Shown: piece by piece, positions 9,703 through 29,142 of the stretch
Layout: the number at the start of each line of letters is the position of its first letter
Position numbering within the stretch: position 1 is the first letter of the stretch
Assembly (NCBI GenBank): GCA_003223135.1
Contig: QHXX01000029.1
Span: 1-64,000 of the forward strand
Reading direction: 5' to 3'
DNA length: 64,000 nt
Origin: Acidobacteriota bacterium
Lineage (GTDB): Bacteria; Acidobacteriota; Polarisedimenticolia; Gp22-AA2
The notes under the pieces: generated by a model
Database searches by the model: none
Seen by the model: the letters and a program-made list of their open reading frames with translations, nothing else
Told to the model about the DNA's origin: nothing
Position numbers and translations under genes: made by a program

Positions 9703-9704
9703 GT

Positions 9705-12094: not shown

Positions 12095-13221
12095 GACTCG
12101 ACCCTCGCCTCGCGGGCGCGCAGGTAGGAGATGCGCCGACCCAGTGGCCAGGCCAGGTCACCCGTACGACGGCGGTCGGCCCAGGCCCGGGCGAGGAGCT
12201 CGAAGGACGCCAGGAACGCGGGTACATTTCCCGGCAGACAGCGACGCAAAGCCAGACGATCATCACCACGGCGCACCGTCCCCGGCTCCGTGGTGACGGC
12301 GCAGCGGTAGCCAGCCTCGGCAACCAGCCTGCAGGTGGTGTCGCTGAGATCGGGAAAACGACCGTTGGGGTAAGCGAAATCAAGGACGGGCTGTTCCAGC
12401 ATTCGTTCGAGGTCTTTGCGGGAGCCATCGATTTCCGCCCTGGCACTCTCGGGTTCCAGCGTCGAAAGGATAGGGTGGGTCCTGGAGTGGGCGCCCACCG
12501 TGAAGGGGCGCTGCGTCATGCGGCGGAGCAGATCGGGTCCAACCACCCGATCCTCCTCAGGGGGGCGGGTGTATCCACCGGCCTCCTCCGCCAGACGGTC
12601 GAGGATCTCCTGGCGCCTTCCGTCCTGGGTCTTGAGGGCCTCTTTGATTCTGAAATAGGCGGCGTAGCGGCTCGCCTCGTCCACCGTTGGCAACAGGGGC
12701 CAGAGGCCGGGGACTCCTGGTATCGTCGCGCCCTGCCAGCGACGAACCAGTTCCCGAAGCGATGAAATCCAGAGGTCGCGGGATGACCCTACCAAAGCGC
12801 TGGGCATGAAGAAAGTGGCTGGAATATTGAACTCCTGGAGCACGGGTATGGCAAAAATCACATTATTGGTGAATCCGTCGTCGAACGTCACCGCGAATGA
12901 AGCGACCGGCGGCGATTCTCCCCGCGTAACCGCGAGGGCGATTTCCTCCAGAGAGACCTGACGGAGATGTCGTGTCAGGTACCGGAGCTGATCGCGGACA
13001 TTGGAGATGGCGTGACCCGGGGAGAAATACCCCGGGGCCGCATCCGTGGTTCCGTGGAATCCGAGGATCAGGCAAGCATGTCCGGTCTCAAGCGTTCGGC
13101 GCAACATCAGGCCGGTCAGACCGGCGGAATAGAGAATCGCGGCCGTGGCATACTTGATCAAACGCTTGATCAGCGCTCCAAAGCGCCTTCCCGGCGAAAC
13201 TTCTTGCAGGTGCGTTCGCAT
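12091..13221 (-). CDS. Polysaccharide deacetylase (NodB homology, CE4)
   Basis: A 376-residue protein with a CE4 domain, expected to remove N- or O-acetyl groups from a glycan. Motif 1 is FAVTFDDGFTNN (catalytic and metal Asp), motif 2 is HSRTHPIL (metal His pair), and motif 3 is DFAYPNGRFPD. The region before the domain has one hydrophobic stretch (YATAAILYSAGLTGLML) that could anchor it in the membrane. I chose ATG 13221, which begins a plausible N-terminus; the frame is open up to 13365 but that extension looks non-coding. First gene of the minus-strand operon; its promoter is probably at 13425-13453. The start is the weakest part of the call. Confidence 0.85.
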   Translation of the reverse strand: MRTHLQEVSPGRRFGALIKRLIKYATAAILYSAGLTGLMLRRTLETGHACLILGFHGTTDAAPGYFSPGHAISNVRDQLRYLTRHLRQVSLEEIALAVTRGESPPVASFAVTFDDGFTNNVIFAIPVLQEFNIPATFFMPSALVGSSRDLWISSLRELVRRWQGATIPGVPGLWPLLPTVDEASRYAAYFRIKEALKTQDGRRQEILDRLAEEAGGYTRPPEEDRVVGPDLLRRMTQRPFTVGAHSRTHPILSTLEPESARAEIDGSRKDLERMLEQPVLDFAYPNGRFPDLSDTTCRLVAEAGYRCAVTTEPGTVRRGDDRLALRRCLPGNVPAFLASFELLARAWADRRRTGDLAWPLGRRISYLRAREARVES

Positions 13222-13527
13222 GTCCTGCCGAAGAGACTGCCATGTCTGTCCCAAGGAACCACGCAAGGGAGACCTTTCCTCTACCCTACACCGGTTCAAT
13301 CCGGTCTTTTCATGGAGTCTGACGCAGTCGTGGAGGCGAAACGCAGAAGCGTCGCGCGAACACATGTGGCCGCGGTTTTCATAGGCGAGAAATCCGATCC
13401 TCGTGCAAATGGCCTCGACTCATCAATATAATTCTGTCGGCCTGGCGAAGCAATGGGTATGGACGTCGCGTCGCAGCCATGTTGACCTAAGTCACCGACT
13501 GCCGGTTGTGCGGAGGAGGATGCGGCG
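13222..13527. other. Divergent intergenic region between the deacetylase and the sulfatase-like gene
   Basis: 306 bases that separate two operons. It holds the TATAAT-like cluster described at 13425-13453 and the strong Shine-Dalgarno GGAGGAGG at 13512-13519 of the rightward gene. I see no RNA gene, clear terminator or repeat. Confidence 0.5.
13425..13453 (-). promoter_or_regulatory. Putative sigma-70-type promoter for the minus-strand polysaccharide operon
   Basis: On the minus strand TTGCTT (13453-13448) is followed after 17 nt by TATATT (13430-13425). The same AT-rich patch reads TATAAT on the plus strand at 13427-13432, but there its -35 partner is poor, so it could serve the sulfatase-like gene only weakly. 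Confidence 0.45.
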
Positions 13528-15393
13528 TTGAGTTCGTCACGGCGTCTCGTCGTGGTCCTTGGGGAGGGAGCCGCGGTCGGGCTGTTCGTCGGGGGTCTCC
13601 TCGGATGGTGGGAGGTCTGGCTGAATTCCGACCTGAGCCACCGGATGTTCTGGCTGGCGACGCAACGCCTGGCGGGACCGACGGTGCGCGGCGCCGGTTG
13701 GGGCATCCTGGCATCCGCAACGCTCGCCCTCGTGATGGGGGAGCTGGCTCGGCGGGGGCGGCGACCCTTATGGATCGCAATCGTCTGCTTTGGGCTCCTG
13801 TGGATCGCGGGGCTGGCCGCGCTTGCATTCCCCTTCCGTGAGACGGCATTCGTCCTACACCGGTTCAGCAGCCACGCTCTCACGCGAACGGTCTTCGGGT
13901 TGATCACCGCCGCGTCTCTTCTCCTCCTGGCCGGGCGCTCCTGGGATGCCTTGAGTCGCGCGGGGGACTCCGGCAACCTCGGGGTCTTGACAAGATTCCG
14001 CTTCGTCATCGCCGTGCTGGCGGCGGCATGGGTGGCGTTGACGCTCATTCCCTGGGTTCTGCTGCCTCGGCTGTCCGCCGCCCGGGCCTCCGGCCGGCCC
14101 TCGGTCATTCTCGTATCGCTCGACACGTTGCGTGCCGACCGCCTTGGCGTTCTGGGCTCGGCACGACCTCTGACTCCCCTTCTTGACGGGATCGCCACCG
14201 AGGGGATGGTCTTCGAGCAGGCGATGTCCGCCGCGCCGTGGACCCTCCCTGCCCACGCGTCGCTGTTCGCGTCGCGCCTTCCATTCGACCAGAGTCGGCA
14301 CTGGGACTACAACCACGAGGTCCCGCTCCCCCAGACGTTACTCGCGGAGCGGCTTCGCGAGGCCGGCTACCGGACCGCGGCATTCACCGGGGGCGGCTAC
14401 GTCTCCGCTCAGTGCGGCTTCAGTCAGGGCTTCGAAATCTACGAAGATCACGACGAAGTGGTCGAAGGTGGCCCCGAGACGATCGCGGCCGCGGCCCTGG
14501 CATGGGTCCGCGCCGTCCGGAGAGTCCCATTCTTTCTCTTCGTCCACACCTACGAGCCGCATTACCCTTACGTGCACGCCGACTTCGCCAATCCCTCCGA
14601 TGCCGGCCGGCTGCCCTCCGTGGTGACCTACAAGGAGATCGATGCGATCCACAGCGGCGCTTTGATCCTGTCCGAGGCCGAGCGCCGCTACCTGACGGAT
14701 CTCTATGACGGGGATGTGGCCCACGCCGATCGGGTGATCGGGAGGTTTCTCCAGACACTGAGACGAGAGGGAATTCTCGACGGTGCGCTTCTGGTGGTGC
14801 TCTCCGATCACGGGGAGGAGCTATGGGACCGGGAGCCCAATTACAGCCCGGATCACGGTCATTCGCTCTATCAGGAACTCATGCACGTGCCGCTGCTGGT
14901 GCGCTGGCCCGGTCGAGTTCCCGCGGGGTCGCGTATCCGCACACCCGTGAGCCTGATCGATCTGGCACCCACCCTTCTCGCGCTGACCGGGCTCCCCGGT
15001 GATCCCGCTCACCAGGGCAGGAGTCTCGCGAGGACAATGCAGACGGCCGAAGAACCACCGCCCCGGCCGATCCTGGCTGAGGCGATCGAATTTGGTCCGG
15101 ACCGCTTCCTGATTCGGGAAGGAAACCTCAAAGTCGTTCTCACCCCCTACCCGGATCGCTTCAGCATCGTCCCGATCCCGGCCCGCACCCTCGAGGTTTT
15201 CGACCTTGACGCCGACCCCCTGGAACGGCACGACCTCTCCGCCCACCTGACGAAGCCGGTCGCCGAGATGGTGGACGTGCTCTGGCGGCGGGCGAGGGGA
15301 GTCTTGAGTGGCCCGACGCGGGACGACGAAGCGGGGCCGCCGCTCCCGGAAGAGCTTCTCCAACAGCTGCGTTCCCTCGGTTACCTGCACTAG
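13528..15393 (+). CDS. Membrane-anchored sulfatase-superfamily enzyme, Thr type
   Basis: 621 residues: about five hydrophobic helices in the first ~185 residues, then a periplasmic sulfatase fold. Motifs: VILVSLDTLRADRLG, active-site segment AAPWTLPAHASLFAS, FLFVHTYEPHYPY, and VLSDHGEELWDREPNYSPDH GH-type metal site. As in the gene at 6280, the active-site segment has Thr instead of a formylglycine Cys/Ser-x-Pro-x-Arg motif, so phospho-group transfer or hydrolysis is as likely as sulfate ester cleavage. TTG 13528 has a near-perfect GGAGGAGG 8 nt upstream. The C-terminus is QQLRSLGYLH; its TAG stop lies in the CTAG that borders a mobile element. Confidence 0.85.
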   Translation: MSSSRRLVVVLGEGAAVGLFVGGLLGWWEVWLNSDLSHRMFWLATQRLAGPTVRGAGWGILASATLALVMGELARRGRRPLWIAIVCFGLLWIAGLAALAFPFRETAFVLHRFSSHALTRTVFGLITAASLLLLAGRSWDALSRAGDSGNLGVLTRFRFVIAVLAAAWVALTLIPWVLLPRLSAARASGRPSVILVSLDTLRADRLGVLGSARPLTPLLDGIATEGMVFEQAMSAAPWTLPAHASLFASRLPFDQSRHWDYNHEVPLPQTLLAERLREAGYRTAAFTGGGYVSAQCGFSQGFEIYEDHDEVVEGGPETIAAAALAWVRAVRRVPFFLFVHTYEPHYPYVHADFANPSDAGRLPSVVTYKEIDAIHSGALILSEAERRYLTDLYDGDVAHADRVIGRFLQTLRREGILDGALLVVLSDHGEELWDREPNYSPDHGHSLYQELMHVPLLVRWPGRVPAGSRIRTPVSLIDLAPTLLALTGLPGDPAHQGRSLARTMQTAEEPPPRPILAEAIEFGPDRFLIREGNLKVVLTPYPDRFSIVPIPARTLEVFDLDADPLERHDLSAHLTKPVAEMVDVLWRRARGVLSGPTRDDEAGPPLPEELLQQLRSLGYLH

Positions 15394-15668
15394 GAGTGTG
15401 TCCGAGTAATAGCATGGGCCGCGCACATGGGGCTTGCGAGTCCCAGGCGAGGCGCGAGGAGGAAACGATGTTGGTCGCATCGTTGACGATGAGCAACGAA
15501 GCATGGGGCCGCAATCCCCATGTGCCCTGCGGGTTCGCGGCGGCGCGGGGCCGTCCGCGTCGTTGCCGCTCCTCCGAGATGACTCACATCGCGGTCGTCG
15601 CGGCGTCTCGCGGCCGACCCCGCGGCGCCGCGAACGCGACCCATGCTATTACTCGGACACACTCCTAG
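15390..15668 (+). mobile_element. MITE-like element (271 bp) with perfect 25-bp inverted termini and CTAG duplications
   Basis: CTAG at 15390-15393 and at 15665-15668 flank a 271-bp body. Its ends, 15394-15418 and 15640-15664, are perfect inverted repeats beginning GAGTGTGTCCGAG. A second inner inverted pair (15424 region GCACATGGGGCTTGC; 15511 region GCAATCCCCATGTGC) would add secondary structure. Both strands have open frames through it that begin and end alike, but these only reflect the symmetric termini. CTAG target duplication is known for IS5-group elements, so an IS5-derived non-autonomous element is plausible. It sits exactly between the stop of the sulfatase-like gene and the start of the SGNH gene, harming neither. 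Confidence 0.8.
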
Positions 15669-15673
15669 GTGAG

Positions 15674-16687
15674 ATGCCCTTGCTCCGTAGGATTGGAATC
15701 CCCCTCCTTCTGATCACCGCTTCCTCTTTCCTGGCGCTGGCGCTATCCGAAGTCGGATTGCGACTCTTCCGGCCGGTCCAGTACCTCAAGCCGCCAACCC
15801 CGATCCGGCCGGAAGAACAGGGAGAGTCGCTCTACCGCCCTTCCCTGATCCCAGGGCTCAGCTACGAGATGGTTCCGGGCCGTAACGGTTCCTTCGAAGG
15901 GATGTCGGTGCGTACCAACAGCCTCGGCATGCGCGGACCAGAGCCGGCGCCTCCCGACCCGTCGCTCCTCCGAGTGGCGGTGGTGGGGGACTCCTTCACC
16001 TTCGGCTTCGGGGTTCCCGAGGAGGAGACCTACCCCAGCGTCCTTGCGAGAATCCTGAACCGATCGCCAGCCGGCCGGAATCAACGCTTCGAGGTGTTGA
16101 ACCTGGGCGTGGTCGGGTACAACACCCAGGACGAGGCGGTGGTCGTGGAGCGGAAGGTCCTTGCTCTCGATCCGCGCCTGGTCATCGTAGGGTATGTCCT
16201 CAACGATCCGGAAATCGATCCCCGCCCGTCGCTCCACAAGTACTTCGATCCCCCCGTCTGGTGGAGACACTCCCATGTCCTGCGGCTTGTCCATCTGGGA
16301 TGGAACTGGCTGGACGTCTGGCGGTACGGGGGAGGGGACTACATCCGCTATCTTTACGCGCCCGACCGCGAGAAGTGGCAAAGCGTGGTCACCGCCTTCG
16401 GGAAAATCGGGGCCCTCACCCGGGAGAGGGGATCGCGGGTCCTGGTGGTCATCTTTCCCCTGGTCCCACCGGACGGGTGGACCAGCTATCCTTACCGCGA
16501 CCTCCACCTGCAGGTGGCGCAGACCGCCCGGAAGGAAGGATTCGAGGTCGTGGATCTCCTGCCGGTCTTCGTTCGCTACCCTCCATCCGATCTCAGAGTG
16601 TCGGTGGAGGACGGTCATCCCAACACGTTCGGGCATGAGCTGGCCGCCCAGGCCATCGCCGACGCAGCCCTCACCCTCATCAAGTGA
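15674..16687 (+). CDS. SGNH/GDSL-family hydrolase, membrane-anchored
   Basis: 337 residues with an N-terminal hydrophobic anchor (IGIPLLLITASSFLALAL) and an extracytoplasmic SGNH domain. Block I is VAVVGDSFTFGFG with the nucleophile Ser; block V is DGHPNTFGH with the Asp-x-x-His pair near the C-terminus. Proteins of this kind act as O-acetylesterases or acetyltransferase partners on surface glycans. ATG 15674 follows the right end of the MITE-like element, whose edge CTAGGTGAG supplies the apparent ribosome binding site. The frame is open upstream into the element but that part is not expected to be coding. It leads the row of GT-C genes, so a role in modifying the same glycan is inferred. 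Confidence 0.83.
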   Translation: MPLLRRIGIPLLLITASSFLALALSEVGLRLFRPVQYLKPPTPIRPEEQGESLYRPSLIPGLSYEMVPGRNGSFEGMSVRTNSLGMRGPEPAPPDPSLLRVAVVGDSFTFGFGVPEEETYPSVLARILNRSPAGRNQRFEVLNLGVVGYNTQDEAVVVERKVLALDPRLVIVGYVLNDPEIDPRPSLHKYFDPPVWWRHSHVLRLVHLGWNWLDVWRYGGGDYIRYLYAPDREKWQSVVTAFGKIGALTRERGSRVLVVIFPLVPPDGWTSYPYRDLHLQVAQTARKEGFEVVDLLPVFVRYPPSDLRVSVEDGHPNTFGHELAAQAIADAALTLIK

Positions 16688-16763
16688 GGAACGATCGCTG
16701 GCTCCGGTCTACAATCACGCCATGGTCTTCGCCACCGTGCTCGTCGCGGTGTTCCTGCAGGGA
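16688..16763 (+). pseudogene. Relic of a GT-C gene related to the one at 23293
   Basis: Two patches match the gene at 23293-24762. AACGATCGCTGGCTC near 16689 equals codons 3-7 of that gene; directly after it, 16707-16762 matches 23662-23717 at about 46 of 56 bases, in a frame that reads VYNHAMVFATVLVAVFLQ against VYSQAIFFAAVLVAAFLQ. So the start and an internal piece of a paralogue are joined with ~370 bp missing. It overlaps no functional gene. I read it as the scar of a deleted tandem copy. Confidence 0.5.
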
Positions 16764-16773
16764 GCAGGATCGG

Positions 16774-18357
16774 ATGCCCTCTAACATGAAGCGAGCGTTC
16801 ATGATGGTGCTGTTGCTCTTCCTGGGCGGAGTCGGCGCAGAAATCTCGGCCATCTTGTTGATCAATTCCGGCCATCTCGTCTACACCCTGGACGACGCCT
16901 ACATCCATCTGTCCCTGGCCGAGAACATTGCCCGGGGTCACTATGGCGTGAACCTCGGAGAATCTTCTTCTCCATCCTCGAGCATTCTCTGGCCGTTCCT
17001 TCTGGCGCCCGTCGCCGGGTCCGCCTTGGGCACGCTGGTGCCTCTCGTGCTGAACGTCCTGGTGTCCGTCGGGACGGTGTTCCTGTTCTGGAGAGTCGTC
17101 GGCGTCGCGATGGGTGACTATCAGACCGACGTCGTCTCATCGACCGCGGTCCCCACCCTCCTCGTGTCGCTGCTGATCGTCGCCACGAACCTGATCGGAC
17201 TCATCTTCACCGGGATGGAGCACTCCCTGCAGGTCTTCCTCGTGACCTTGATCGTGTGGGGACTGATCCAGGAATCGAGAGGGGGCAAGGCGCACTGGTG
17301 GCTGGTCCTGCCCCTGGTCCTCGCCCCCCTGGTTCGATACGAGAGCCTTGCGATCTCGGTGCCGGGGCTGCTCTATCTCTTCCTGCGTCGACACCGAAAA
17401 GAGGCGCTGACCGCGGCGGTGGTCCTTGGCATGGCGCTGTGGGGATTCTCGGCATTTCTCGTCCATCTGGGACTGGATCCTCTTCCCGACTCCACAATGG
17501 TGAAATCGAAGGTCGTCTCCTCGGGCGGAAATCTCCGGCTCATGGTTCGTCACTTCGGGGGCAGCCTGAACAACCCCAGGGGGAGCATTCTGGCGGCGGT
17601 CTGTCTGGCCCTCTGCTGGCTCGCACGCTCCGGGGGACGGAAGCCAGCTGAGAGGCTGTTCGCGTGGTGTATCGCGTCGGGCGTCGCCCTGCACCTGCTC
17701 GCGGGGGAGTACGGATGGTACAGCCGGTACGAGATCTACATCTGGACGGCGTCCATCTTGTCCGTCCTCTATCTCGGCAGGGAGGCTCTGTCCCGGAGGC
17801 TCGCTCGTGACGGTCCCTACGCGGTCGGCTTCCTCGCGGGGCTGACGGTGGTGCTCACCTGCTTACCCTACATCCAGGTTCTCGCCACGACTCCGCTCGC
17901 CTCGAACAACGTCTACCAGCAGCAGCGCCAGATCCGCCGATTTGCCGTTGAGTATTACAAGAGACCCATTGCGGTGAATGACGTCGGTTATCCATCCTAC
18001 GGCAATGACGCCTACGTTCTGGACGTGGCAGGGGTCGCCTCGAGTGAAGCATTGAAGGCCCTGAAGCGAGGCGACACGGCCGCCTGGTTCGAGGAGGCGT
18101 CTAGGGTTCACGATGTTCGTCTCGCGATGATCTACGGCGCTTGGTTCGCTCCGATCGCTGACCGGTGGATTAAGATAGGCGAGCTTCACCTGGGGCGGGA
18201 AAAAATTTCCGTCAACAATGAAGCGGTGGAATTCTACGCCCGCGACGACGAAACTCGGGAAGCGGTGATCCCGCTGCTTCGCAGTTTCGCGGCGACCTTG
18301 CCCGAGGGAGCCAGGTTCACTTTTTCCGATTCGAACCGGGGTGCCCCGGAGAATTGA
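16774..18357 (+). CDS. GT-C-like polytopic membrane protein 1 of 6
   Basis: 527 residues with about ten hydrophobic helices and a C-terminal soluble tail of ~130 residues. The first periplasmic loop carries VYTLDDAYIHLSLAENIARG, an acidic pair placed as in ArnT/PMT-type GT-C transferases. It probably uses a polyprenyl-linked sugar, but acceptor and sugar are unknown. ATG 16774 is preceded by GGAGCAGGA at 16761-16769; the open frame upstream to 16684 covers a gene relic and is not part of it. The stop overlaps the next start (TTGA at 18354). Confidence 0.72.
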   Translation: MPSNMKRAFMMVLLLFLGGVGAEISAILLINSGHLVYTLDDAYIHLSLAENIARGHYGVNLGESSSPSSSILWPFLLAPVAGSALGTLVPLVLNVLVSVGTVFLFWRVVGVAMGDYQTDVVSSTAVPTLLVSLLIVATNLIGLIFTGMEHSLQVFLVTLIVWGLIQESRGGKAHWWLVLPLVLAPLVRYESLAISVPGLLYLFLRRHRKEALTAAVVLGMALWGFSAFLVHLGLDPLPDSTMVKSKVVSSGGNLRLMVRHFGGSLNNPRGSILAAVCLALCWLARSGGRKPAERLFAWCIASGVALHLLAGEYGWYSRYEIYIWTASILSVLYLGREALSRRLARDGPYAVGFLAGLTVVLTCLPYIQVLATTPLASNNVYQQQRQIRRFAVEYYKRPIAVNDVGYPSYGNDAYVLDVAGVASSEALKALKRGDTAAWFEEASRVHDVRLAMIYGAWFAPIADRWIKIGELHLGREKISVNNEAVEFYARDDETREAVIPLLRSFAATLPEGARFTFSDSNRGAPEN

Positions 18358-19904
18358 TTGCACTGGGCCTTTGGCCCGAGGGGACGGGGGGAAGGTTGAC
18401 TTTTTTGAAGCCGCCTCCGGGATCTCCCGCCAAGATTCTCCGCACCCTCCTTCTCGCCGGCGCCGCCTTGTATCCCGTCGTCTACCTGTGCCTGGCGTAT
18501 TACCGGCTTCGGTATCCATTCGAGCTCGAATGGATGGAGGGGGGAGGCCTGGCGCAGGTCGGGAGGATCCTGGGCGGAGAGCCGCTGTACACGCGCCCGA
18601 GCATGGCGTACATTCCTTTCATCTACCCTCCGCTCTACTACTACACAGCCGCCGCGGCCTCGCGCATGATGGGGCAGGAGGGATTCCTGCCCCTGCGCCT
18701 CGTGTCGTTCGTGTCTTCCCTCGCCTGCTTCGTTCTGATCTTTCGAATGGTGCTGAAACAGACGGGCGATCGGACCGCGTCGTTCTTGTCCAGCGCCCTC
18801 TTTGCGGCGACCTTCCGTGCGGGCGGTGCCTGGCTGGATGTGGCGAGGGTGGATTCGATGTTTTTGGCGTTATTCCTGGCGGGGGTGTATGTCATTGCGC
18901 CACGCCTTTCCAATAAACGGTGCCTGGCGGCCGGCGTTCTATTCTCCCTATCCGCATTGACCAAGCAGGCCGCGCTTCTGATGTGCGCTCCTCTGATCCT
19001 CTACCTGCTCTGGAAGAGCTGGCCCCGGGCGGTGGCCATGGCGGCTCCCATGGCTCTCTTCCTGGGAGGGGCCACCGTGCTGCAGGACCGTGCAACCGGT
19101 GGATGGTTCTCCTACTACGTCCTCCTTCTTCCAAGACAGCATGCGTGGTCCCGGGACGTCTGGCTCTCGTTTTGGTTCCGGGATCTACTGTCCACCCTGC
19201 CCATCGTCCTTTTGATTGCGATGTTCGCCTCGCTTCCGCTTCTCGCGCCCCACCGCCGCTTCGCGGGTCCCTTCTGGCTCGCGGTCACCGCCGGGATGCT
19301 CGCGGGGTCCTGGCTGATGCGGACCTTCGAGGGAGGATACGAGAATGTGCTGCTTCCCGCGCTCGCGATCCTCTCCGTGCTGTTCGGCCTCTCCCAGAGC
19401 ACCATCCGGGAATGGGTCGCCGGCTTGCGCCCGGAATGGAGACACAGCGGCGAGGCATTCGTCTCCATGGCATGTCTCGTGCAGTTTGCGTTCCCGGGCC
19501 TTCTCTACGATCCGCGGCTGCAGCTTCCCACTCAATTGGACCTCATGGCGGGCAGGAACCTGGTGCGGATGGTTCGTGACGCGACGGGGGAGGTCCTCAT
19601 CCCCTCGCACCCCTACCTCGTTGCGCTGGCCGGCAAGGAGCCTTCGGCGACGGAGATGGCCCTGCAGGAGGTGCAGAGGTCCCGCACCCCCGAGAAGGAG
19701 GCGGTGGAGCGGGAGATCGCGGAAGCCCTGCGCAGCCGGCGCTTCGCCCTGGTCCTCCTGGACGGGAATTCGGGCTTCCTCCCCGATTTCGACCGCTACT
19801 ACGTGGAGAAGGCGCGGGTCCTTCAGGGGAAGGAGTTCTATCCGGTGACCGGTGCTAAGAGGAGACCGGAAATCCTGTACGTGCCGAGGAGGGAGGGGAT
19901 TTGA
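18354..19904 (+). CDS. GT-C-like polytopic membrane protein 2 of 6 (GT39/PMT-like)
   Basis: 516 residues, multi-helix. The first loop reads FELEWMEGGGLAQVGRILGG with an E-x-x-E pair, followed by IPFIYPPLYYYTAA, a pattern common in dolichyl-phosphate-mannose-type transferases. The C-terminal ~110 residues are soluble and likely periplasmic. TTG 18354 gives a TTGA overlap with the previous gene; TTG 18396, just after GGGGGGAAGG, is an alternative that would drop 14 residues. Function is inferred from topology and context, so the sugar is unknown. Confidence 0.75.
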   Translation: MIALGLWPEGTGGRLTFLKPPPGSPAKILRTLLLAGAALYPVVYLCLAYYRLRYPFELEWMEGGGLAQVGRILGGEPLYTRPSMAYIPFIYPPLYYYTAAAASRMMGQEGFLPLRLVSFVSSLACFVLIFRMVLKQTGDRTASFLSSALFAATFRAGGAWLDVARVDSMFLALFLAGVYVIAPRLSNKRCLAAGVLFSLSALTKQAALLMCAPLILYLLWKSWPRAVAMAAPMALFLGGATVLQDRATGGWFSYYVLLLPRQHAWSRDVWLSFWFRDLLSTLPIVLLIAMFASLPLLAPHRRFAGPFWLAVTAGMLAGSWLMRTFEGGYENVLLPALAILSVLFGLSQSTIREWVAGLRPEWRHSGEAFVSMACLVQFAFPGLLYDPRLQLPTQLDLMAGRNLVRMVRDATGEVLIPSHPYLVALAGKEPSATEMALQEVQRSRTPEKEAVEREIAEALRSRRFALVLLDGNSGFLPDFDRYYVEKARVLQGKEFYPVTGAKRRPEILYVPRREGI

Positions 19905-21655
19905 GCCGACCCTGGCGCCCACAGCTCGCTCCGGTGGACCTGGCCCTCGGCCTCATGGTGGGTCTCGCCGCAGTGGCGAGGTTTGCAGGCATCGGTTTCG
20001 GGCTCCCCCTCGTCAACTGCCGCCCCGACGAGCTGACCCTGATCGCGCACGCCATCGGCTTCTTCTCCGGAGATTTCAACCCGCATTTCTTCAGTTACCC
20101 TTCGCTTCTCATGTACCTCTATTACGGGATGTACAGGATTTATTACTTTCTGGGCCTGGCGTCGGGACGGTTCGGTTCATCTGGCCAGCTCATCGTCGAG
20201 TTTGCAAACGATCCGACGCGGTTCTTCTTGATGGGCCGGGCCGTTTCGGGACTTCTGGGCACCCTCTCGGTGGTTCTGACCTACCGGCTGGCTGCGCGCT
20301 TCTTCGACACGAGCGTCGCGCTGATCTCCGGTTTATTTCTGGCCTTCGCCTACCTGCATGTCCGGGATTCACATTTCGCGACGACCGACGTGCCAGCGAC
20401 CTTTTTCATCCTCTGCTCCTATGTCTGGATTGCGAAGGCGTTTGAGGCACCCTCGGTCCGGGCCTACCTCATGTCGGGAACGTTCGCGGGCATCGCCGCC
20501 TCCACCAAGTACCTGGGAGTGCTGATTTCGGTCCCCATGATGCTGGTTCATCTCAAGGATTGGAAAGAGGCCGGGTTCCGCCCTGGTCTTGCGTTGGATC
20601 GGAAGGTGTTCTGGTTCGGGGGCGCTCTCGTTCTCCTCTTTTTTCTTGGGACTCCCTTTTCGCTCGCGGAGCCGCTCAACGCCTTCAGGGATTTTCGCAG
20701 GGAGGCCCGGGCGGTCCTGGCGACAAGCGATCATGGTCACATTGGCTGGCTGTACCATTTGATCGTCTCGCTGCGCCACGGACTCGGCCTGCCGCTGCTG
20801 CTGGCGTCGTTGGCCGGGTTCGTTCTGGCCTTTCGAGTGGATAAGAGAAAGGCGTGGGTCCTGCTGAGCTTCCCGCTCGTCTACTACGCACTCATGGGCA
20901 GGGGTTACAGGAACTTCACCCGTTACGCCGTCCCACTCGTGCCCTTCCTCTGCATCGCCGCCGGAGTGTTCGTCGGTTCTCTGGGCGCCATGGTGGCACG
21001 CCGATGGACCCCCCGCGCGCGCGCCCCGTTGCTGAGCCTGATGTGCTGTGCGGTCCTCCTGCCGGGGCTGGTCAAGATTGTCGGCTTCGACGCCTTGCTG
21101 CTTAAGACGGATACCCGGGTATTGGCCAGACGCTACGTTGAACGCGCAATCCCGCCAGGGACGTCGGTGTGCGTTGTTCCCCTGACATTCAGCGAGCTTG
21201 ATCTCTACCCGACCTCGGATGCGCTCACCCGTCAGATGCAGGCGGAGCCACCCGGGAGCATACGGCGGTGGATGGCCTCCGCCAGGCTCGAGGCCCTCCA
21301 GGCCAAAGCGCGTCCCGGATACAGGCTGTGGGAGTACGATTCCCAGTCGGGAAGGTTCGTCATGGACGGAAAGGTCATGGACTCCCTTCCCGACGTTCTC
21401 ATCCTGGAGGAGTCCCCGCTGCCCGTGCTCAAGCGAATGGCGCCCGAGGAGGTCAGGAATCTCGCGGCCAGGAAATACACGCTCACGAAGTCGCTGCTCG
21501 CCTACGACGATCTCTCTGGGAGCGTATTCGACGAGCGGGACATCTTCTACATGCCGCTGGAAGGCTTCCGTAATTTTTCCCGGCCCGGCCCCAACATTCA
21601 TATCTACGAGCGGCGTGAAGAGGCGCCGGTCTCCGATGACGGCCCCCGCCAATGA
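19901..21655 (+). CDS. GT-C-like polytopic membrane protein 3 of 6
   Basis: 584 residues with numerous hydrophobic helices. The first extracytoplasmic loop has VNCRPDELTLIAHAIGFFSG and then FNPHFFSYPSLLMYLYYG, the acidic pair and the aromatic stretch expected of a PMT_2-type GT-C. TTG 19901 overlaps the upstream stop as TTGA and has GGAGGGAGGGG directly before it. The ~150-residue C-terminal part is soluble. The stop overlaps the next ATG (ATGA). Confidence 0.75.
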   Translation: MSRPWRPQLAPVDLALGLMVGLAAVARFAGIGFGLPLVNCRPDELTLIAHAIGFFSGDFNPHFFSYPSLLMYLYYGMYRIYYFLGLASGRFGSSGQLIVEFANDPTRFFLMGRAVSGLLGTLSVVLTYRLAARFFDTSVALISGLFLAFAYLHVRDSHFATTDVPATFFILCSYVWIAKAFEAPSVRAYLMSGTFAGIAASTKYLGVLISVPMMLVHLKDWKEAGFRPGLALDRKVFWFGGALVLLFFLGTPFSLAEPLNAFRDFRREARAVLATSDHGHIGWLYHLIVSLRHGLGLPLLLASLAGFVLAFRVDKRKAWVLLSFPLVYYALMGRGYRNFTRYAVPLVPFLCIAAGVFVGSLGAMVARRWTPRARAPLLSLMCCAVLLPGLVKIVGFDALLLKTDTRVLARRYVERAIPPGTSVCVVPLTFSELDLYPTSDALTRQMQAEPPGSIRRWMASARLEALQAKARPGYRLWEYDSQSGRFVMDGKVMDSLPDVLILEESPLPVLKRMAPEEVRNLAARKYTLTKSLLAYDDLSGSVFDERDIFYMPLEGFRNFSRPGPNIHIYERREEAPVSDDGPRQ

Positions 21656-23226
21656 CCGACGCCGCCGCAGGGCGATGGGCGTGGCTCGTGCTGCTGCTCT
21701 GCCTCGCAGTCCTCCTGGTTTCTCAGCAGGGGAGTCTGGGGTTCCAGCCGGGCCACCATGGCTACCTCACTTCCATGGGACTGGCCATGGCGAAAAACCT
21801 GAGCCCGGAAAACAGATTCCTCATGTTCACCCAGGTCGCAATCGACGAAGGGGGCAACAAGGTCTTCAGTCCGCACAATCGCTTCCCCGTCCTTTCCTAC
21901 GTGCTCATCAAGGGGGCCATGTCTCTCTCCGGGGGCGATCTCGATGCGCAAATGCGATGGGCCCACCAACTCATGAACCTGTTCTTCTGGGGGGGACTCG
22001 TCTGCAGCTACCTCCTCATCCGGCAAATGTCCGGAAGACCGCTGCTGGCCATTGCGGTCTGCCTCATCAGCTATTCCTCCTACTACATGCAGTATTACAA
22101 CGACATGATATTCAACGACATTCCGGCTCTCTTCGGGTTTCTGCTGGTCCTCCTCGGGGTTGTCTCGTGGCGGCACACCGGCTCAGGTCAACTTCTTTAC
22201 ATCGGGATCTTCGTGGCGATAGCACTGGGTTGGCAGGCCTACGCGGTTCTGGTCTGCTGGACCACGCTGGAAGCTCTGTGGATTGCGAAACGCTCCTGGC
22301 GGAACCGAGTGGTCGCCGTGACAACGATTGTCCGCCACCCCGCCACGCGCGCGCTGGCGGTTGGTGTCTTGTGGGGTGGTTCGCTTTTGAGCTTCAATCT
22401 CTACAACGAATCCCGGGTGATGCACCAGGACATCGGAGATCTGCCTTCGGCGCGCTCCATCAAGTTCAGGCTGGGCCTGGCAGGAGGTGCGGCGGACTTT
22501 CCGACCTACCAGGATCTGCGATGGCGCCCGTTTTTGGAGATGCAAGTGCGGAGAATCCTCAAGGCAGCCGTCCCGACCCGTCCCCTGCACGGCCTGCTGG
22601 ACAAGTTCAGTGACCGGATGCAAGGACGCGGCGGCCTGAGACTCGTGGGCCTCCTGATTCTGCCGGTGGTGGTCTTCTCCTATTTCTTCTGGCGGCTCTT
22701 CCGTGAGAGCGCGGATCGACTCGCGCTCCTCGCAGTCTTCCTATCGGGGCTCTTCTGGACGATCCCCATGAAGTACTTCACGGCCTTCCACGATTTTCAG
22801 GGTATCTTCTATGTGGGCATGGTCCTTGTCATTTACCTCGCGATGCTGCACAGACTGCCTGAAAATGCTCTCGGTGCGGTCGTGGGTCTGGCCATGGTGG
22901 TGTTCGTCTATTCCAATGCCGACCTGAATCGGCAGAAGGCCGAGGGATCGAAATATTTCGCCTCCTACACCCGCGATTTCGCGAAGATCGACGCTCTGAT
23001 CGGCAACGGAAGGCGAATCCAGGCGGGGACCGATGACAAGGAGTTCGAGCAGGAGAGTAAGCAGCTACGCTTCTACATGGCCGGCGATTACTATTCCGAC
23101 GCGAGCCACGCGGAGTTCATCCTGTCCAAGAACAGGGCGCATAACGACTCCTTGATGACGCCCGACAACGAAGCCGTGTTTCTCTTCCGCAACGCGGCCG
23201 GTCGCCCGCTTCAGCCGGCGGAGTAG
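21652..23226 (+). CDS. GT-C-like polytopic membrane protein 4 of 6
   Basis: 524 residues, about ten hydrophobic helices and a short soluble C-terminus. Its first loop lacks the usual Asp/Glu pair; it has QPGHHGYLTSMGLAMAKN instead, with an IDEGG element about 40 residues later. It may be a divergent transferase or a non-catalytic partner of the neighbouring proteins. ATG 21652 overlaps the previous stop (ATGA). A 66-base gap with no obvious signal separates it from the next gene. Confidence 0.68.
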   Translation: MTDAAAGRWAWLVLLLCLAVLLVSQQGSLGFQPGHHGYLTSMGLAMAKNLSPENRFLMFTQVAIDEGGNKVFSPHNRFPVLSYVLIKGAMSLSGGDLDAQMRWAHQLMNLFFWGGLVCSYLLIRQMSGRPLLAIAVCLISYSSYYMQYYNDMIFNDIPALFGFLLVLLGVVSWRHTGSGQLLYIGIFVAIALGWQAYAVLVCWTTLEALWIAKRSWRNRVVAVTTIVRHPATRALAVGVLWGGSLLSFNLYNESRVMHQDIGDLPSARSIKFRLGLAGGAADFPTYQDLRWRPFLEMQVRRILKAAVPTRPLHGLLDKFSDRMQGRGGLRLVGLLILPVVVFSYFFWRLFRESADRLALLAVFLSGLFWTIPMKYFTAFHDFQGIFYVGMVLVIYLAMLHRLPENALGAVVGLAMVVFVYSNADLNRQKAEGSKYFASYTRDFAKIDALIGNGRRIQAGTDDKEFEQESKQLRFYMAGDYYSDASHAEFILSKNRAHNDSLMTPDNEAVFLFRNAAGRPLQPAE

Positions 23227-23292
23227 CTCGATGGCATGGTCCGAGGCGCCATAGAGTTTCGTATCCTCGCTCCCCTGGCTTAACCGAATCGG

Positions 23293-24762
23293 ATGAAGAA
23301 CGATCGCTGGCTCTGGGCCATCCTCCTTCTGGGAGCGGCCGTTCGCCTGGTCGGTCTCGGAGAGCGCAGCCTTTCCTACGACGAGTGTCAGCAGTTCTGG
23401 GCTTCGCAGGGGAACGTATTAATCTCGAATCGCGTGATCACGCTGGATCCGCCGGGGTTCGCAGGCCTGCTCCACCTCCACGCCGCCGCCGGCCGAAGTG
23501 AGGCCTGGCTGCGTCTCCTGCCCTGTCTCTTCGGCATCCTCGCGATCGCCGCCGTCTACCGTCTTGGCATCGCAGGCACCGCCAACCGATGGACGGCCCG
23601 GGCGGCTGCCTTCTTCATCGCCCTTGCGCCCTACCCCATTCGATATTCCCAGTCCCTTCGCGTCTACAGCCAGGCGATTTTCTTCGCCGCCGTGCTCGTC
23701 GCGGCGTTCTTGCAGGTGAAGGACGGGGGAGACCGGCGGGGATGGAGCGACGTGCTCATCCTGGGATTCTCCACCTTCGCGGCCCTCCTCTCCGTCTATG
23801 GCAGTGTCTGGCTCATCTTGATGATGGCGATCCTCCTGGCCTGGCGCGGCCGCCGGGAAAGAGGGCGGGCGTGGCGGCGGGCCGTGATCGGTCTGGCAGC
23901 GGGAACCATTCTTTGCATTCCCTGGTATCTGCTCTCCCTTCCGGTGCAGCTCACCGAAGGGACGCCGTCTTCCTTCTACGAGGACAAGTTCCTTCCCCTT
24001 TCCTTTCTGCCCGCCGTCGGCTTCCTGATCCGGGGCACCTCGGATCTCTTCGCCTTCCTTTCTTTCATCCACCCGGGGACCGGCTTTCTCTTCGGCGCCC
24101 TGGCGGTCCTCGGGATGGTCCGCCTCCGCCGACAGCGGTGCTGTGCAGACCTGCAGGTCGTCTTCCTGGGGAGTCTCGTGTCAGCGGCCGCCGCCTCCGC
24201 CTTTCGCCTCTATCCGTACGGGGGAACCCGGCAGATGCTGTTCGCCTCACCCGTCTTCTATGTTCTGGGCGCGGCCGGCATCGAGTCGCTGCGCCATCAT
24301 CTTCGAGGAGTGCCGGCCGTCGTCGTCCTGATGGCCATCGCCGGTGGCTCCGGGATTTTCCTCTACCGGTACCACACCGAGCCCGGGGGCCAGGAAATGC
24401 GCCCGGTGATTCGGTCGCTGGAGGTGGCGGCCCGTCCCGAGGACCGGATTCTGGTCAACAAGGACGCGCTGCCCCAGTTCCGGTTCTACTACCGCGGGAG
24501 CCGGGTCCGGGTGGTGGAGGGCAAGGAATCGGTGATTCGAGACTATATCTCCGAGGTGAATCGTATGATGGCCACCGCCCCCCAATCGCGATGGTGGCTT
24601 GTCTTCTCTCACGGCTGGAGCGCCGAGCGGCGTGGGGAGCTGGCAGCAGTCGATTCCCGTTTCCTGGCCGGGGAGCGATTCGAGGCCTACCGTGCCGCCG
24701 CCTACCTTTTCATGCCCCGGACCGGTTCCCCGCCAGCACCCGGGGACGGAGAAGAGCCGTGA
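23293..24762 (+). CDS. GT-C-like polytopic membrane protein 5 of 6
   Basis: 489 residues. The start MKNDRWLWAILLLGAAVRLV leads straight into helix 1; the first loop has SLSYDECQQFWASQGN with the Asp-Glu pair of ArnT-like enzymes. A soluble C-terminal region of ~110 residues follows the helices. No strong Shine-Dalgarno precedes ATG 23293. A fragment of a paralogue of this gene lies at 16688-16763. Its stop overlaps the next start (GTGA at 24759). Confidence 0.75.
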   Translation: MKNDRWLWAILLLGAAVRLVGLGERSLSYDECQQFWASQGNVLISNRVITLDPPGFAGLLHLHAAAGRSEAWLRLLPCLFGILAIAAVYRLGIAGTANRWTARAAAFFIALAPYPIRYSQSLRVYSQAIFFAAVLVAAFLQVKDGGDRRGWSDVLILGFSTFAALLSVYGSVWLILMMAILLAWRGRRERGRAWRRAVIGLAAGTILCIPWYLLSLPVQLTEGTPSSFYEDKFLPLSFLPAVGFLIRGTSDLFAFLSFIHPGTGFLFGALAVLGMVRLRRQRCCADLQVVFLGSLVSAAAASAFRLYPYGGTRQMLFASPVFYVLGAAGIESLRHHLRGVPAVVVLMAIAGGSGIFLYRYHTEPGGQEMRPVIRSLEVAARPEDRILVNKDALPQFRFYYRGSRVRVVEGKESVIRDYISEVNRMMATAPQSRWWLVFSHGWSAERRGELAAVDSRFLAGERFEAYRAAAYLFMPRTGSPPAPGDGEEP

Positions 24763-26768
24763 CGGGGCCCCGGCGTCCATTGCTATGGGGTCTGGTGGTT
24801 CTCGTCGTCGCCCTCGCTCTTTCGCTTCTCCCGGGGGAAATGGCCGGCACGACGGGTGGCGCGCTCCTCGGACTGTTTCTCCCCGGTTACGCCCTCTTGT
24901 TGTGCCTCGGAACCCGTGGCCGACTTGACTGGCCGCCTGATGTCCTCGACTGCGTTGCGGCCTCGCTTGCGATTACCCCGCTTGCTCTCCGCTTGGCCTC
25001 TGTCATCCTTCCATTCGACCGACTTCACGTGCTCGGTGTGTTGGCCGGGGTCACACTAGGGATGCTTGTCCTCGGCGCGCTTCGCCCCAGAGTCGCCCTC
25101 ACGCCCTCCCGCAGAAAGACTCCGCTCGCCGTCCTCGCGATCGTGATCGCGACGCTGCTTTTCCTGGCGCCGACTTTGGCTATCGGCCCGACCCCCGAAG
25201 GCGGGGAGAGCCGGGTCAAAGGGTGGGACCTGAATAACCATTTGGCGATCGCCGAGTCGATCGCGACCCGGGGACTGCCTCCGCTCAACCCGTTCCTGGC
25301 GACTGATTCCCCCTTCTATTACCACACCTTCTTTCATATCCTCCTGGGAGCGGTGCTGGTTGTCGCCGGGAATGGTGCCCATTCCTACCTGCTCATTTCC
25401 TTGCTCACGCTCCTGCTCGCTGCCGTCTTCCTCTCCACCTTCTACCGGGCAGTCTCGGAGTTCACGGGCGACGACCGTGTCGCCCTCTTCTCGCTGCCAC
25501 TGGTCAGTCTGGTCGGCGGTTTCGACATGATTCCGATGGCCGTCAAGGCCTTTTTCGAAAAGGACGGAATCCATTCCCCAGTGGACTTCTTTCTGCGGCA
25601 CTGGAACGTGGATGGCTGGGTTTCCAACCGGGGAATGCTGGTGCCCAGCTTCTTCGCCAGCTTCTACTGGGTGCCCCATGCGGTCGCGGCCGTGGTGGTC
25701 TTCCTGCTGGCTCTGCTCTACCTCAGGAGGACCGAGGCCGACACCGGGGCCGTGGCCGCGGTCTTCCTGGCCTCGATGGCCGGTTACAACGGATACGTGG
25801 CCCTGGCCGGCGCGGCGACCCTGATTCTGCTGCGGGGCATCGATCTCGTGAGGTTCCTCGCCTCCGGTTTCCGGACCGGCCGCGGCATTCTCCTCCGCAG
25901 CGCGCTGGTTGGAGGTTTTGCGATTCTCCTCAGCCTGCCGGTCCTGAACCTTTATGTCGGCCACGAAGGAGACACAGCCAAGTTTCGTTGGGCGCGGCCG
26001 GGGCCGCTCGCTCCCCTACAGATCATCCTGGAATTTGGACCGGCCCTCATCCTGGGCCTGGTGGGGCTGGCTATGTCCCGGCGTCAAGTAACCGAAAAGG
26101 GGGGAACGATCCCCTTTCTCTTGATGGGTGTCGTAAGCCTGCCCCTCATCTGCCTGGTGGCCTCCACGGGCGAAAACAATGACCTGGCGATGCGGATCTC
26201 CATGCTCCTGTGGCTGTGCCTTGCCGTTTTCAGCGGCGTCGCCCTGAATCGCATTCTGGAGGTCTTCCCGGATCCGGCGTCCGCGACTTGGACGGACCGG
26301 ATCGCGTCGCTGGCCGCGCTGGCGCTCGGCTTTCTCTCGGTTGTCTGGTTCGCAATCGGTGCCGCGGTGGCCAAGCCGACCCTTCCCGCCGACGAGGTGG
26401 CGGCTGGCCGATGGGTCAGGACCCATATCGCGTCGGGTCTACTGGTGCAGGGGTCTCCGCTTCGGAGTAGTCCTGAGCTGGTCTACCTGACCGGCCATCC
26501 AGCGGTCCTCTCGGACACCTGGGCCGCCGGACTGTTCTACTCGGAGCCGGAAGACTTTGCGCGCCGGATGACCTCCTTGCGCGAGGCCTTTTCGAACCCC
26601 GATCCCTCAATCACCTGTCCCATCCTGCGGTCGCTGGGCATTGCGGTCCTTGTGGTGGGCCCGCCGGAGGAGCGGGATTTTCCACTCCTCGTCCGCCCCA
26701 ACCCGTGGCCGTGCCTCGCAGAGGCCTATCATCGAGGCACCTATCGGGTCTACCGGCTGTTGCCCTGA
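24759..26768 (+). CDS. GT-C-like polytopic membrane protein 6 of 6
   Basis: 669 residues and at least a dozen hydrophobic helices. The loop after the first helix block contains KGWDLNNHLAIAESIATRG and then DSPFYYHTFFHILLG, an arrangement seen in large uncharacterised GT-C/PMT-like proteins. GTG 24759 overlaps the upstream stop (GTGA); the same frame is open far upstream, but that stretch is antisense-like within gene 5. It ends the plus-strand run, six bases short of the oppositely oriented cohesin gene. Confidence 0.7.
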   Translation: MTGPRRPLLWGLVVLVVALALSLLPGEMAGTTGGALLGLFLPGYALLLCLGTRGRLDWPPDVLDCVAASLAITPLALRLASVILPFDRLHVLGVLAGVTLGMLVLGALRPRVALTPSRRKTPLAVLAIVIATLLFLAPTLAIGPTPEGGESRVKGWDLNNHLAIAESIATRGLPPLNPFLATDSPFYYHTFFHILLGAVLVVAGNGAHSYLLISLLTLLLAAVFLSTFYRAVSEFTGDDRVALFSLPLVSLVGGFDMIPMAVKAFFEKDGIHSPVDFFLRHWNVDGWVSNRGMLVPSFFASFYWVPHAVAAVVVFLLALLYLRRTEADTGAVAAVFLASMAGYNGYVALAGAATLILLRGIDLVRFLASGFRTGRGILLRSALVGGFAILLSLPVLNLYVGHEGDTAKFRWARPGPLAPLQIILEFGPALILGLVGLAMSRRQVTEKGGTIPFLLMGVVSLPLICLVASTGENNDLAMRISMLLWLCLAVFSGVALNRILEVFPDPASATWTDRIASLAALALGFLSVVWFAIGAAVAKPTLPADEVAAGRWVRTHIASGLLVQGSPLRSSPELVYLTGHPAVLSDTWAAGLFYSEPEDFARRMTSLREAFSNPDPSITCPILRSLGIAVLVVGPPEERDFPLLVRPNPWPCLAEAYHRGTYRVYRLLP

Positions 26769-26774
26769 GAGACC

Positions 26775-27663
26775 CTATCGTACTTCGGCAGTGGATCCGA
26801 CGACCTCGGCGGTCAAGGGTTCGCTCGTGGCGCCGCGGACCGTAGCACGATCGAAGTGGAGGTCGGATCTTCCGCGTCCCAGCGCCAGGAAATCGATGAG
26901 AAGGATAGCACCCGATCCGTTGAATGTTCCGGAGGAGCGGACGAACGACAGCCCGACGGCCAGATCTCCGGGCCTGTCGGGATTCACTGAAGCCAGGAAG
27001 ATCGGCTGGAGAGAGCGGCCGTTCAGTGCCGGTCCGGTTCGGGTCCCGACGTACTGAAGAACCCCCGGATCGAATTGGAGGTGAAATGGAACGCTCGTGA
27101 CATCACGCGCCCCGGTCAGGGCGACCGCAACCGAGATCGTCTCGCCTCGGGAGACTGCATGTCGATCGGGGGCCAGGGTCAGGCGCAGGGATTGAGCGTC
27201 CTGGGGCTCCGGAACAGTCGCTTCACTCTCGGATGGTTGGGATTCATCGTTCTGTCCGGGACGGTCGTGATTCGGAGCCGTCGACTGCGGACCCGTTGCA
27301 GGCATCGACGGAGAGCCCGGGAAGCTGCCGCCTGCGATCCAACCGATCGAAGCCACCTGGTTCACAGCGGGCTGCGGGTGCTCCTGCGGCGACGCAGCCG
27401 CCGGCGCGCGCGAAGCCGAGCCCACCCCCTGCTCCATCGGCGATGCTCCGATCCGTGGTTGCGATCGCCGCAAGTTCAGCCGCCGGGTAGAACGAGGGCG
27501 GCACGGGCGCCCCGGTCATCATGGCGAGCGTGGTCGGGGAGGTCGGAAGGCCCCCGGAGGTCGGCTGCCTGTAGTGATAATAGTCCCAGAGAGGGAGGGC
27601 CAGGAGAGTTCCGGCCATGAGCGCGGCCCCCGCCATGATGGACCAGTAGATGATTCGGCTCAT
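26775..27663 (-). pseudogene. Membrane-anchored cohesin-domain protein, frameshifted
   Basis: ATG 27663 opens a frame with a single hydrophobic helix (WSIMAGAALMAGTLLALPLW) and a short linker; it continues to 27244 but turns meaningless after about 27430. A cohesin-like domain lies in the +1 frame: SLRLTLAPDRHAVSRGETIS, VPFHLQFDPGVLQYVGTRTG and GAILLIDFLALGRG. A proline-rich linker joins the two. Skipping one base, for example in the G5 run (plus 27425-27429), fuses them into one ~295-residue protein: anchor, linker, cohesin. Alternatives are a sequencing indel, a real frameshift, or a separate start at TTG 27473 or ATG 27437. It follows the cohesin lipoprotein with a TGATG overlap. Confidence 0.6.
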
Positions 27664-28250
27664 CAGGGCACCTGAACGACCCCGCCGTGTCCGGGGCCGA
27701 AGGAGGCGGCGACGACGCTACCGTTCTCATCGATGATCTGGTTGTTGATCGAGCCGCCCGTGTTGAAGTCGACGGTGCCCACGCCGCTGGCCACCTTGAC
27801 GAAATGGAACGTAATGAGACTCGCGCTGCCTACGGCGGAGACGCTCGAATCGGGCCTGAAGAGCGTTGCGCTGGCCACGATATCCCCCGGCGAAGGATTC
27901 GTGACGAAGAACTGCGGTGGGATCGGCGGGCTACCCTGTTGGAGAAGAGGGCCCGGGCTGAAGCTCTGATACTCGATCACCGAGGACGGATAGTTGATTT
28001 CGAACCCGACCGTGAAGATCCCCGAAAGGTTCGTCACCAAAACGCTGATGTCGACCGAATCGCAGGAACTGATCGGCGACAGGAGATAGACATCCCCCGC
28101 TCCCGGGGAGCCGATCGAGGGGGCGAAGGCGATCGGGGTACACGGCATCACGTCGTCTCCGTTGCCCTTGCCGCCCTTGCATCCCAGTCCGAGCACAAGG
28201 AGCAGCACGCCGAGAGGAGCGACGCCGGTCAGCAGTCTTCTTCTGTTCAT
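27663..28250 (-). CDS. Cohesin-domain lipoprotein (putative)
   Basis: 195 residues. A signal sequence ends at GLGCKGG, giving a probable lipoprotein cysteine at residue 24; the -3 position is not ideal. The rest is one cohesin-like beta-sandwich: DSVDISVLVTNLSGIFTVGF, EINYPSSVIEYQSFSPGP and ASLITFHFVKVASGVGTV. Cohesins bind dockerins, and a dockerin protein is encoded immediately upstream with an ATGA overlap, so the two are probably partners at the outer membrane or cell surface. It lacks any catalytic domain. Cohesin folds also occur in proteins unrelated to cellulosomes, so binding remains an inference. Confidence 0.72.
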   Translation of the reverse strand: MNRRRLLTGVAPLGVLLLVLGLGCKGGKGNGDDVMPCTPIAFAPSIGSPGAGDVYLLSPISSCDSVDISVLVTNLSGIFTVGFEINYPSSVIEYQSFSPGPLLQQGSPPIPPQFFVTNPSPGDIVASATLFRPDSSVSAVGSASLITFHFVKVASGVGTVDFNTGGSINNQIIDENGSVVAASFGPGHGGVVQVP

Positions 28251-29068
28251 GGACAGACCGCCAACCGCTGACCGAGGTAACTCACGAGGATGTCAAGATC
28301 GGCGCCTCCCACGTCACCGTCGCCGTCCAGATCGGCACTCGCGATGTAGGCGGGATCGGAGCTCAGCGTGTTCCAGGCACGGGCGAGAAGATTCAGGTCG
28401 AACAGGTCGATCTTGCAGTCGCGGTTGATGTCCGCGGTCTTCACCACGGTCAGGGTGTTCGGCCTGCTTGCCATACCGCTGTCAGGGTTCGTGACGGACA
28501 GGGTCCTGGGCCCCAGGAGCGCAGAGGAGCTTACGGTGATCGACGCAGTCAAGTGGCCCGAGTCCATCAGTGAGGTTGGGCCGACGCTGATGTCGGCGCC
28601 CAATCCCACAGTAGCACCGCTCTGGAAATTGCTCCCGTTCACCTGGATGGTCTGGCTTCCGGACTGCAGAATGTAAACCGACCCCGTACCAAGCTCGACG
28701 GCTTGACTGATGGTCGGCGTCAGCGTCGTCACCGTCGGCTGGACGGCGACTTCGTTCGAAGGCAAGCTCTCGTTCCCCGCGCGGTCGTAGGCGGTGACCA
28801 CGAAGTAGTAGGTCGTGTTCGCTGCGAGGTTCGGGACCGAATAGCCGTTGACCGGGCCAACATCGATGACGGGAAGGGTGTAACTGCGCGAAGCGGTGCC
28901 GAAGTGGATCCGATAGCCCGCCAGGTCCGATTCGAGGTTGGCGTCCCAAGCGAGACTGACCACCGTACCCGCTTCGAGGATTCCAGTCGGCCATATCAAA
29001 AGGATTAGACCGATCAGGAATCCGGTCGAGCCGACCACCGACTGTAAGAGCCCGCGGTGAGTCGTCAT
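28247..29068 (-). CDS. Secreted FN3-TIG-dockerin protein
   Basis: 273 residues. After a signal-like hydrophobic segment (TGFLIGLILLIWPTGIL), a fibronectin type III domain runs from about 38 to 112 (VSLAWDANLESDLAGYRI, TYYFVVTAYDRAGNES). An IPT/TIG-like domain (about 115-210) includes VNGSNFQSGATVGLG. The C-terminus is a type I dockerin with both calcium loops intact: DINRDCKIDLFD and DLDGDGDVGGAD, each followed by a helix. No enzyme domain is present, unlike cellulosomal proteins. ATG 29068 is preceded by AGGGGGGG. A sigma-54-like promoter lies 59 bases further up. First gene of the operon with two cohesin genes. Confidence 0.82.
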   Translation of the reverse strand: MTTHRGLLQSVVGSTGFLIGLILLIWPTGILEAGTVVSLAWDANLESDLAGYRIHFGTASRSYTLPVIDVGPVNGYSVPNLAANTTYYFVVTAYDRAGNESLPSNEVAVQPTVTTLTPTISQAVELGTGSVYILQSGSQTIQVNGSNFQSGATVGLGADISVGPTSLMDSGHLTASITVSSSALLGPRTLSVTNPDSGMASRPNTLTVVKTADINRDCKIDLFDLNLLARAWNTLSSDPAYIASADLDGDGDVGGADLDILVSYLGQRLAVCP

Positions 29069-29126: not shown

Positions 29127-29142
29127 TGCAAGCGGGCTGCCA
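29127..29142 (-). promoter_or_regulatory. Putative sigma-54 promoter for the dockerin/cohesin operon
   Basis: The minus strand reads TGGCAGCCCGCTTGCA, with the invariant GG and GC separated by exactly 10 bases, as sigma-54 requires. The expected start of transcription would be near 29116, leaving about 48 nt before ATG 29068. Such promoters need an enhancer-binding activator; none is encoded in the window. Confidence 0.55.

Follow-up and report, generated by a model that had tools for sequence, protein, structure and literature searches.

A candidate sigma-54-controlled dockerin–cohesin surface anchor conserved as a two-gene unit in a class of Acidobacteriota

Cohesin–dockerin coupling is among the strongest natural protein–protein couplings, and to our knowledge it is understood almost solely in cellulosomes. 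What, then, might a dockerin and two cohesins do in an operon that encodes no glycosidase? Three such genes lie on the minus strand of contig QHXX01000029.1 (GCA_003223135.1) of an Acidobacteriota bacterium (genome code G000), and we analysed a window of 64,000 nt of this contig together with 41 genomes of the same class of the phylum Acidobacteriota. The initial annotation had described a coupled three-gene operon at 26775-29068. We found the three genes at these positions, with stop and start codons that overlap at both gene borders (ATGA and TGATG), so translation of the genes is probably coupled; the third gene, however, is present in the assembly as two out-of-phase frames. With moderate confidence, we favour the reading that the operon encodes a sigma-54-controlled, one-to-one, calcium-dependent dockerin–cohesin surface anchor for a matrix protein.

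Gene 1 (28247..29068, minus strand) encodes a 273-aa protein consisting of a signal peptide followed by FN3, TIG and dockerin domains. The FN3 domain (residues 35-107, 28748..28966, minus strand) scores 30.3 bits against Pfam fn3 (cut-off 25), and the TIG/Ig-like domain (residues about 119-209, 28442..28714, minus strand) is matched over residues 133-208 by NCBIfam CoaZ_rpt_PGGG at 38.2 bits (cut-off 30); 5 of 20 gene 1 family members have a TIG match. The type I dockerin (28274..28435, minus strand) scores 38 and 34.6 bits against a Pfam Dockerin_1 cut-off of 22.9. Its two F-hand calcium loops, initially annotated as intact, are indeed both complete (DINRDCKIDLFD and DLDGDGDVGGAD), and a helix follows each of them. 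An AlphaFold model built from 20 family members (pLDDT 85.9) contains two beta domains and both dockerin helices (residues 222-230 and 255-264). Some gene 1 orthologues (family f6) have an atypical or expanded first calcium loop, which counts against a surface anchor of the kind proposed here.

Gene 2 (27663..28250, minus strand) encodes a 195-aa protein with a lipobox cysteine (Cys24) and a Gly-rich tether. While the dockerin, FN3, TIG-like and gene 3 cohesin domains all exceeded their cut-offs in domain searches, the gene 2 sequence on its own scored 17 bits against Pfam Cohesin, under the cut-off of 24.1. A profile of the gene 2 family nonetheless matched ScaB and other solved cohesins in the PDB (2.2e-6), and Pfam Cohesin was matched by 16 of 17 gene 2 orthologues (best 3.3e-13). 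The AlphaFold model of gene 2 (pLDDT 88.8) has a predicted cohesin fold: all 50 PDB matches listed in a fold search were cohesins or cohesin-containing structures, among them CaCohA2, Acetivibrio ScaB and type II cohesins. Because family profile, orthologues and model fold all agree, gene 2 encodes a cohesin lipoprotein despite its sub-threshold Pfam score, as the initial annotation had thought probable. Across the gene 2 family the residue after the lipid Cys is G, K, S or R and never D; the predicted outer-membrane surface location supposes that Acidobacteriota obey the +2 sorting rule and display lipoproteins on the surface, neither of which may hold.

The third gene had been described as a cohesin with a transmembrane (TM) anchor. 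Both parts are encoded in the window, but in different frames. The N-terminal frame (27244..27663, minus strand) comprises a short start, a TM helix (YWSIMAGAALMAGTLLALPLWDYY) and a linker, and is out of frame with the cohesin; the C-terminal frame (26775..27473, open from 27515, minus strand) carries a secretin-class cohesin (domain at 26871-27155) that exceeds the Pfam cut-off within an open frame (29.5 and 28.2 bits). When an intact 345-aa relative was used as a tblastn query, the gene 3 matches were split over two frames, and about 63 linker codons of the closest relative's gene 3 had no match in the window. At a distance of 4 kb, mutS (window 30745-33324) has its domains I-IV and the end of its domain V in different frames, with about 50 domain V residues, including the P-loop (ATP-binding loop), unmatched. 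Since this lesion is similar and close on the same contig, the break in gene 3 is likely an assembly error more than decay, and that in mutS is probably an assembly deletion of the same sort. Intact copies of gene 3 occur in G002 (345 aa), G001 (337 aa) and G007, and a copy split across contig ends in G004; with broken and split copies counted, the gene stands beside the pair in 5 of 5 operon-bearing genomes of the window's family.

We then consider how far this arrangement extends. The gene 2 profile identified 18 strong orthologues (E < 1e-46) in the 41 class genomes, and all 18 lie directly downstream of gene 1. No gene 3 was seen in the operon outside the window's family among these 41 genomes, and there the operon has one cohesin. 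The earlier proposal of two anchors in one operon therefore applies to the window's family, and that of a small non-cellulosomal assembly system is well supported for genes 1 and 2, with their strict pairing and conserved promoter. Class-wide, 36 of 97 dockerins among the matches listed have a same-strand cohesin less than 1.5 kb downstream, most within about 140 bp, and 2 have one upstream; this list combines Pfam matches with added operon dockerins, so that 36/97 is not an unbiased rate and the asymmetry of the order is what counts. The same two-gene design also occurs with unrelated dockerin proteins, including beta-helix (L189), MopE-motif (L190) and other proteins (L197, L202), as well as a GDSL esterase outside the class (L201).

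These pairs bear on a different interpretation, in which the operon cohesins mainly bind other dockerin proteins and gene 1 is one client of a shared receptor network. Several dockerins and cohesins are indeed located on different contigs of the genome. Furthermore, a DUF11-type repeat protein on contig C158 (L005:1471-2685) has a TIG-dockerin end 54% identical to that of gene 1 and no adjoining cohesin gene. The strict 18/18 pairing and the recurring private dockerin–cohesin gene pairs point instead to one-to-one partners, and we consider such a network unlikely.

Other arrangements of these modules were also observed. The window's genome contains a paralogous trio on contig C31 (L010:5246-12571), in which an S8 subtilase of about 1900 aa is followed by a cohesin-like lipoprotein and then by a secretin-class cohesin protein. 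The trio is also seen at L191 and L192. The subtilase ends in a degenerate dockerin-like repeat, and such subtilases also precede a cohesin in G001 and G002. In giant ORFs of G034 (contigs C280, C115, C193, C315 and C318), dockerin and cohesin matches share a frame and are about 20 residues apart. Very large proteins in three further genomes (L194, L195 and L196 in G029, G005 and G030) carry a TSYDAALIARHAVG-type dockerin-like repeat and then a cohesin in the same chain, and these chains are a second, fused architecture. Elsewhere in the Acidobacteriota, families other than these have a gene for a cohesin lipoprotein next to cysS (L199:1468-2028, where def is also present, and L200), with no dockerin gene nearby.

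We found that the sigma-54-like promoter initially assigned to the operon is a conserved feature. The predicted -24/-12 promoter TGGCAGCCCGCTTGCA (29127..29142, minus strand) lies 58 bp ahead of the gene 1 start codon and scores 29/33, and 0 of 500 shuffles were as good. Of 22 loci, 16 have a site scoring at least 27.5 at 28-78 bp ahead of gene 1, compared with a 95th percentile of 26.5/33 among 109 control upstream regions taken from these loci, and the GG-N10-GC core of the putative promoter is conserved close upstream of gene 1. No such site was found upstream of gene 1 in G001, G007, G018, G020, G037 or the second G034 copy, which counts against sigma-54-controlled anchoring in these cases. 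Outside the window's family, most loci have a histidine kinase and a sigma-54 activator of the AtoSC/NtrBC type next to the pair, and this neighbouring regulator may act on the promoter. Two further observations weigh against the proposed anchor: genomes of the window's family lack an adjoining regulator pair (in G000 the closest homologue of the response regulator is encoded on contig C54, with 54% identity), and at four loci (L087, L088, L091 and L092) an FN3-dockerin gene adjoins the regulator pair without a cohesin lipoprotein.

The proximity of a kinase gene to the pair, and the fact that either orientation of the lipoprotein is possible, would be compatible with a lipoprotein that faces the periplasm, as part of a complex that has a structural or sensing role and is tied to the two-component system. 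However, the L084 kinase contains PAS, HisKA and HATPase domains only and has no obvious membrane segment in its sequence, which makes direct contact unlikely, and the FN3/TIG modules, like the polysaccharide neighbours, suit a location outside the cell. A periplasmic complex of this kind is, in our judgement, very improbable.

The neighbours in question are genes of polysaccharide synthesis. Beside the operon, a polysaccharide/glycolipid region (158..26768) contains GT2 and PMT-type glycosyltransferases together with GNAT/FemAB-like and sulfatase genes, and the operon itself encodes no glycosidase, as the initial annotation had stated. In relatives, the pair is found beside a flippase-like polysaccharide gene and an asparagine synthase (G026), an O-antigen-type ABC exporter (G034) or GT4 glycosyltransferases (G028); polysaccharide-synthesis genes thus recur as operon neighbours in these named cases, as a raw recurrence. 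Histone H1-like lysine-rich KKATKKKAAKRK ORFs were also noted near the operon in two genera (L171:1129-1506, L171:5192-5572 and L172:12649-13107).

A sigma-54-linked secreted protein encoded near polysaccharide genes resembles the PEP-CTERM systems, in which PEP-CTERM/exosortase matrix proteins are under PrsK/PrsR and RpoN control (PMC1569441, PMC9850573) and floc formation involves the RpoN-dependent PEP-CTERM protein PepA (PMC9850573). The response regulator here also reaches 407.6 bits with the PEP-CTERM regulator model, which is below the cut-off of 502.6, and the sorting signal would be the dockerin. Exosortase was found in 8 of 41 class genomes, adjacent to the operon in none of them, and G000 has no match. 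A PEP-CTERM/exosortase system is ruled out, given that G000 has no exosortase match and that the gene 1 protein ends in a dockerin.

The locus is likewise distinct from a cellulosome. Common to type I and type II cellulosome pairs and the operon are the dockerin and cohesin module families and the two dockerin calcium loops. The operon, in contrast, lacks a glycoside hydrolase, a carbohydrate-binding module and a multi-cohesin scaffoldin, and it has one cohesin per dockerin, a lipoprotein anchor and a sigma-54 promoter. Cellulosome identity is ruled out, as the operon proteins, when scanned, contained no enzyme or scaffoldin domains; the Pfam cohesins of the genome are single domains on three contigs. 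Cohesins and dockerins outside cellulose degradation have been described before (Peer et al. 2009, as cited in PMC9012536): ANME archaea have non-cellulosomal cohesin/dockerin proteins (PMC9012536), and in syntrophic sulfate reducers cohesins and dockerins occur among putative adhesins with fibronectin and S8 protease domains (PMC10553843). Compared with these non-cellulosomal proteins, the present system is a fixed two-gene unit across the class: its cohesin is a lipoprotein, its sigma-54 promoter is conserved and a regulator pair usually adjoins it. In the open papers that we searched, neither this operon nor its regulation nor a secretin bearing a cohesin is described. Non-cellulosomal cohesin–dockerin pairs are thus already known, and what is new is this wiring.

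Cohesin-bearing secretins are the second place where cohesins recur. On contig C145, G000 encodes a type II-like secretin (L009:1098-3548) with a TPR start, Secretin and Secretin_N domains and a C-terminal cohesin that scores 29.4 bits, over the cut-off. Its secretin domains and the two GspG-like pseudopilin genes downstream resemble those of GspD/PilQ secretins of type II and type IV pilus systems, from which it differs by the C-terminal cohesin, of the class to which gene 3 belongs. Secretins with an in-frame cohesin after the secretin domain occur in 31 of 41 class genomes, and phylum-wide, cohesins recur in frames of roughly 730-1130 aa. In a cohesin tree, the secretin and gene 3 cohesins are separated from the lipoprotein cohesins by a branch with 98/98 support. 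This split indicates that each class contributes one cohesin to the operon in the window's family, and it rules out gene 3 as a plain duplicate of gene 2. The suggestion in the initial annotation that one dockerin partner could choose between membranes becomes, with gene 3 grouping with the secretin cohesin, a possible link with secretion.

Such a link could take the form of a relay, in which the dockerin serves as a docking tag for the type II-like secretion machine: the exported dockerin protein would be held by the membrane-anchored gene 3 cohesin, taken over by the secretin cohesin and, once outside, captured by the lipoprotein cohesin. The in-frame secretin cohesins of the class, the similar-length frames across the phylum and the position of gene 3 and secretin cohesins on one side of the 98/98 branch are in favour of this, as are three genomes (G006, G010 and G020) in which scans found dockerins and, as their sole cohesin, that of the secretin type. 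Gene 3 is nevertheless limited to one family, kinship of domains is not equal to binding, and the secretin C-terminus may face either side of the outer membrane. We are also not aware of a dockerin signal in any other type II system, which argues against a relay, and we hold it to be unlikely.

We return to the surface anchor as the favoured interpretation, for which the evidence is of three kinds. First, the domains and folds, the 18/18 pairing and the never-D context of the lipid Cys argue that genes 1 and 2 form an anchoring unit. Second, the dockerin-then-cohesin order recurs, including with unrelated partners, and the two modules share frames in G034. Third, the sigma-54 sites, the adjoining regulator pairs, the polysaccharide neighbours and the functional parallel of PepA (PMC9850573) are consistent with a regulated matrix protein. 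In the proposed mechanism, a signal would reach sigma-54 via an AtoSC/NtrBC-like two-component system, and the cell would make the FN3-TIG-dockerin protein and, by translational coupling, the cohesin lipoprotein, both of which would be exported. The lipoprotein would sit in the outer membrane on its Gly-rich tether, and the gene 1 dockerin would plug into its cohesin. In this way the FN3-TIG part, which is probably an adhesin for matrix or polysaccharide, would be held at the surface beside polysaccharide made by the neighbouring genes. In the window's family, the third gene would add a membrane-anchored cohesin of the secretin class.

Our data describe a two-gene anchoring unit that is repeated across the class and probably regulated, with a related cohesin on a secretion channel. 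It is conceivable, though we think it unlikely, that Acidobacteriota use the dockerin as a tag for secretion and sorting. The secretin cohesin, in some lineages after a membrane-anchored cohesin, would then pass tagged proteins through the outer membrane, where private lipoprotein cohesins would take them over and hold them at the cell surface; if true, this would amount to a non-covalent equivalent of anchoring by sortase or exosortase. The operon supplies concrete pairs for study, and surface anchoring of this kind could explain how matrix proteins are retained without an exosortase.
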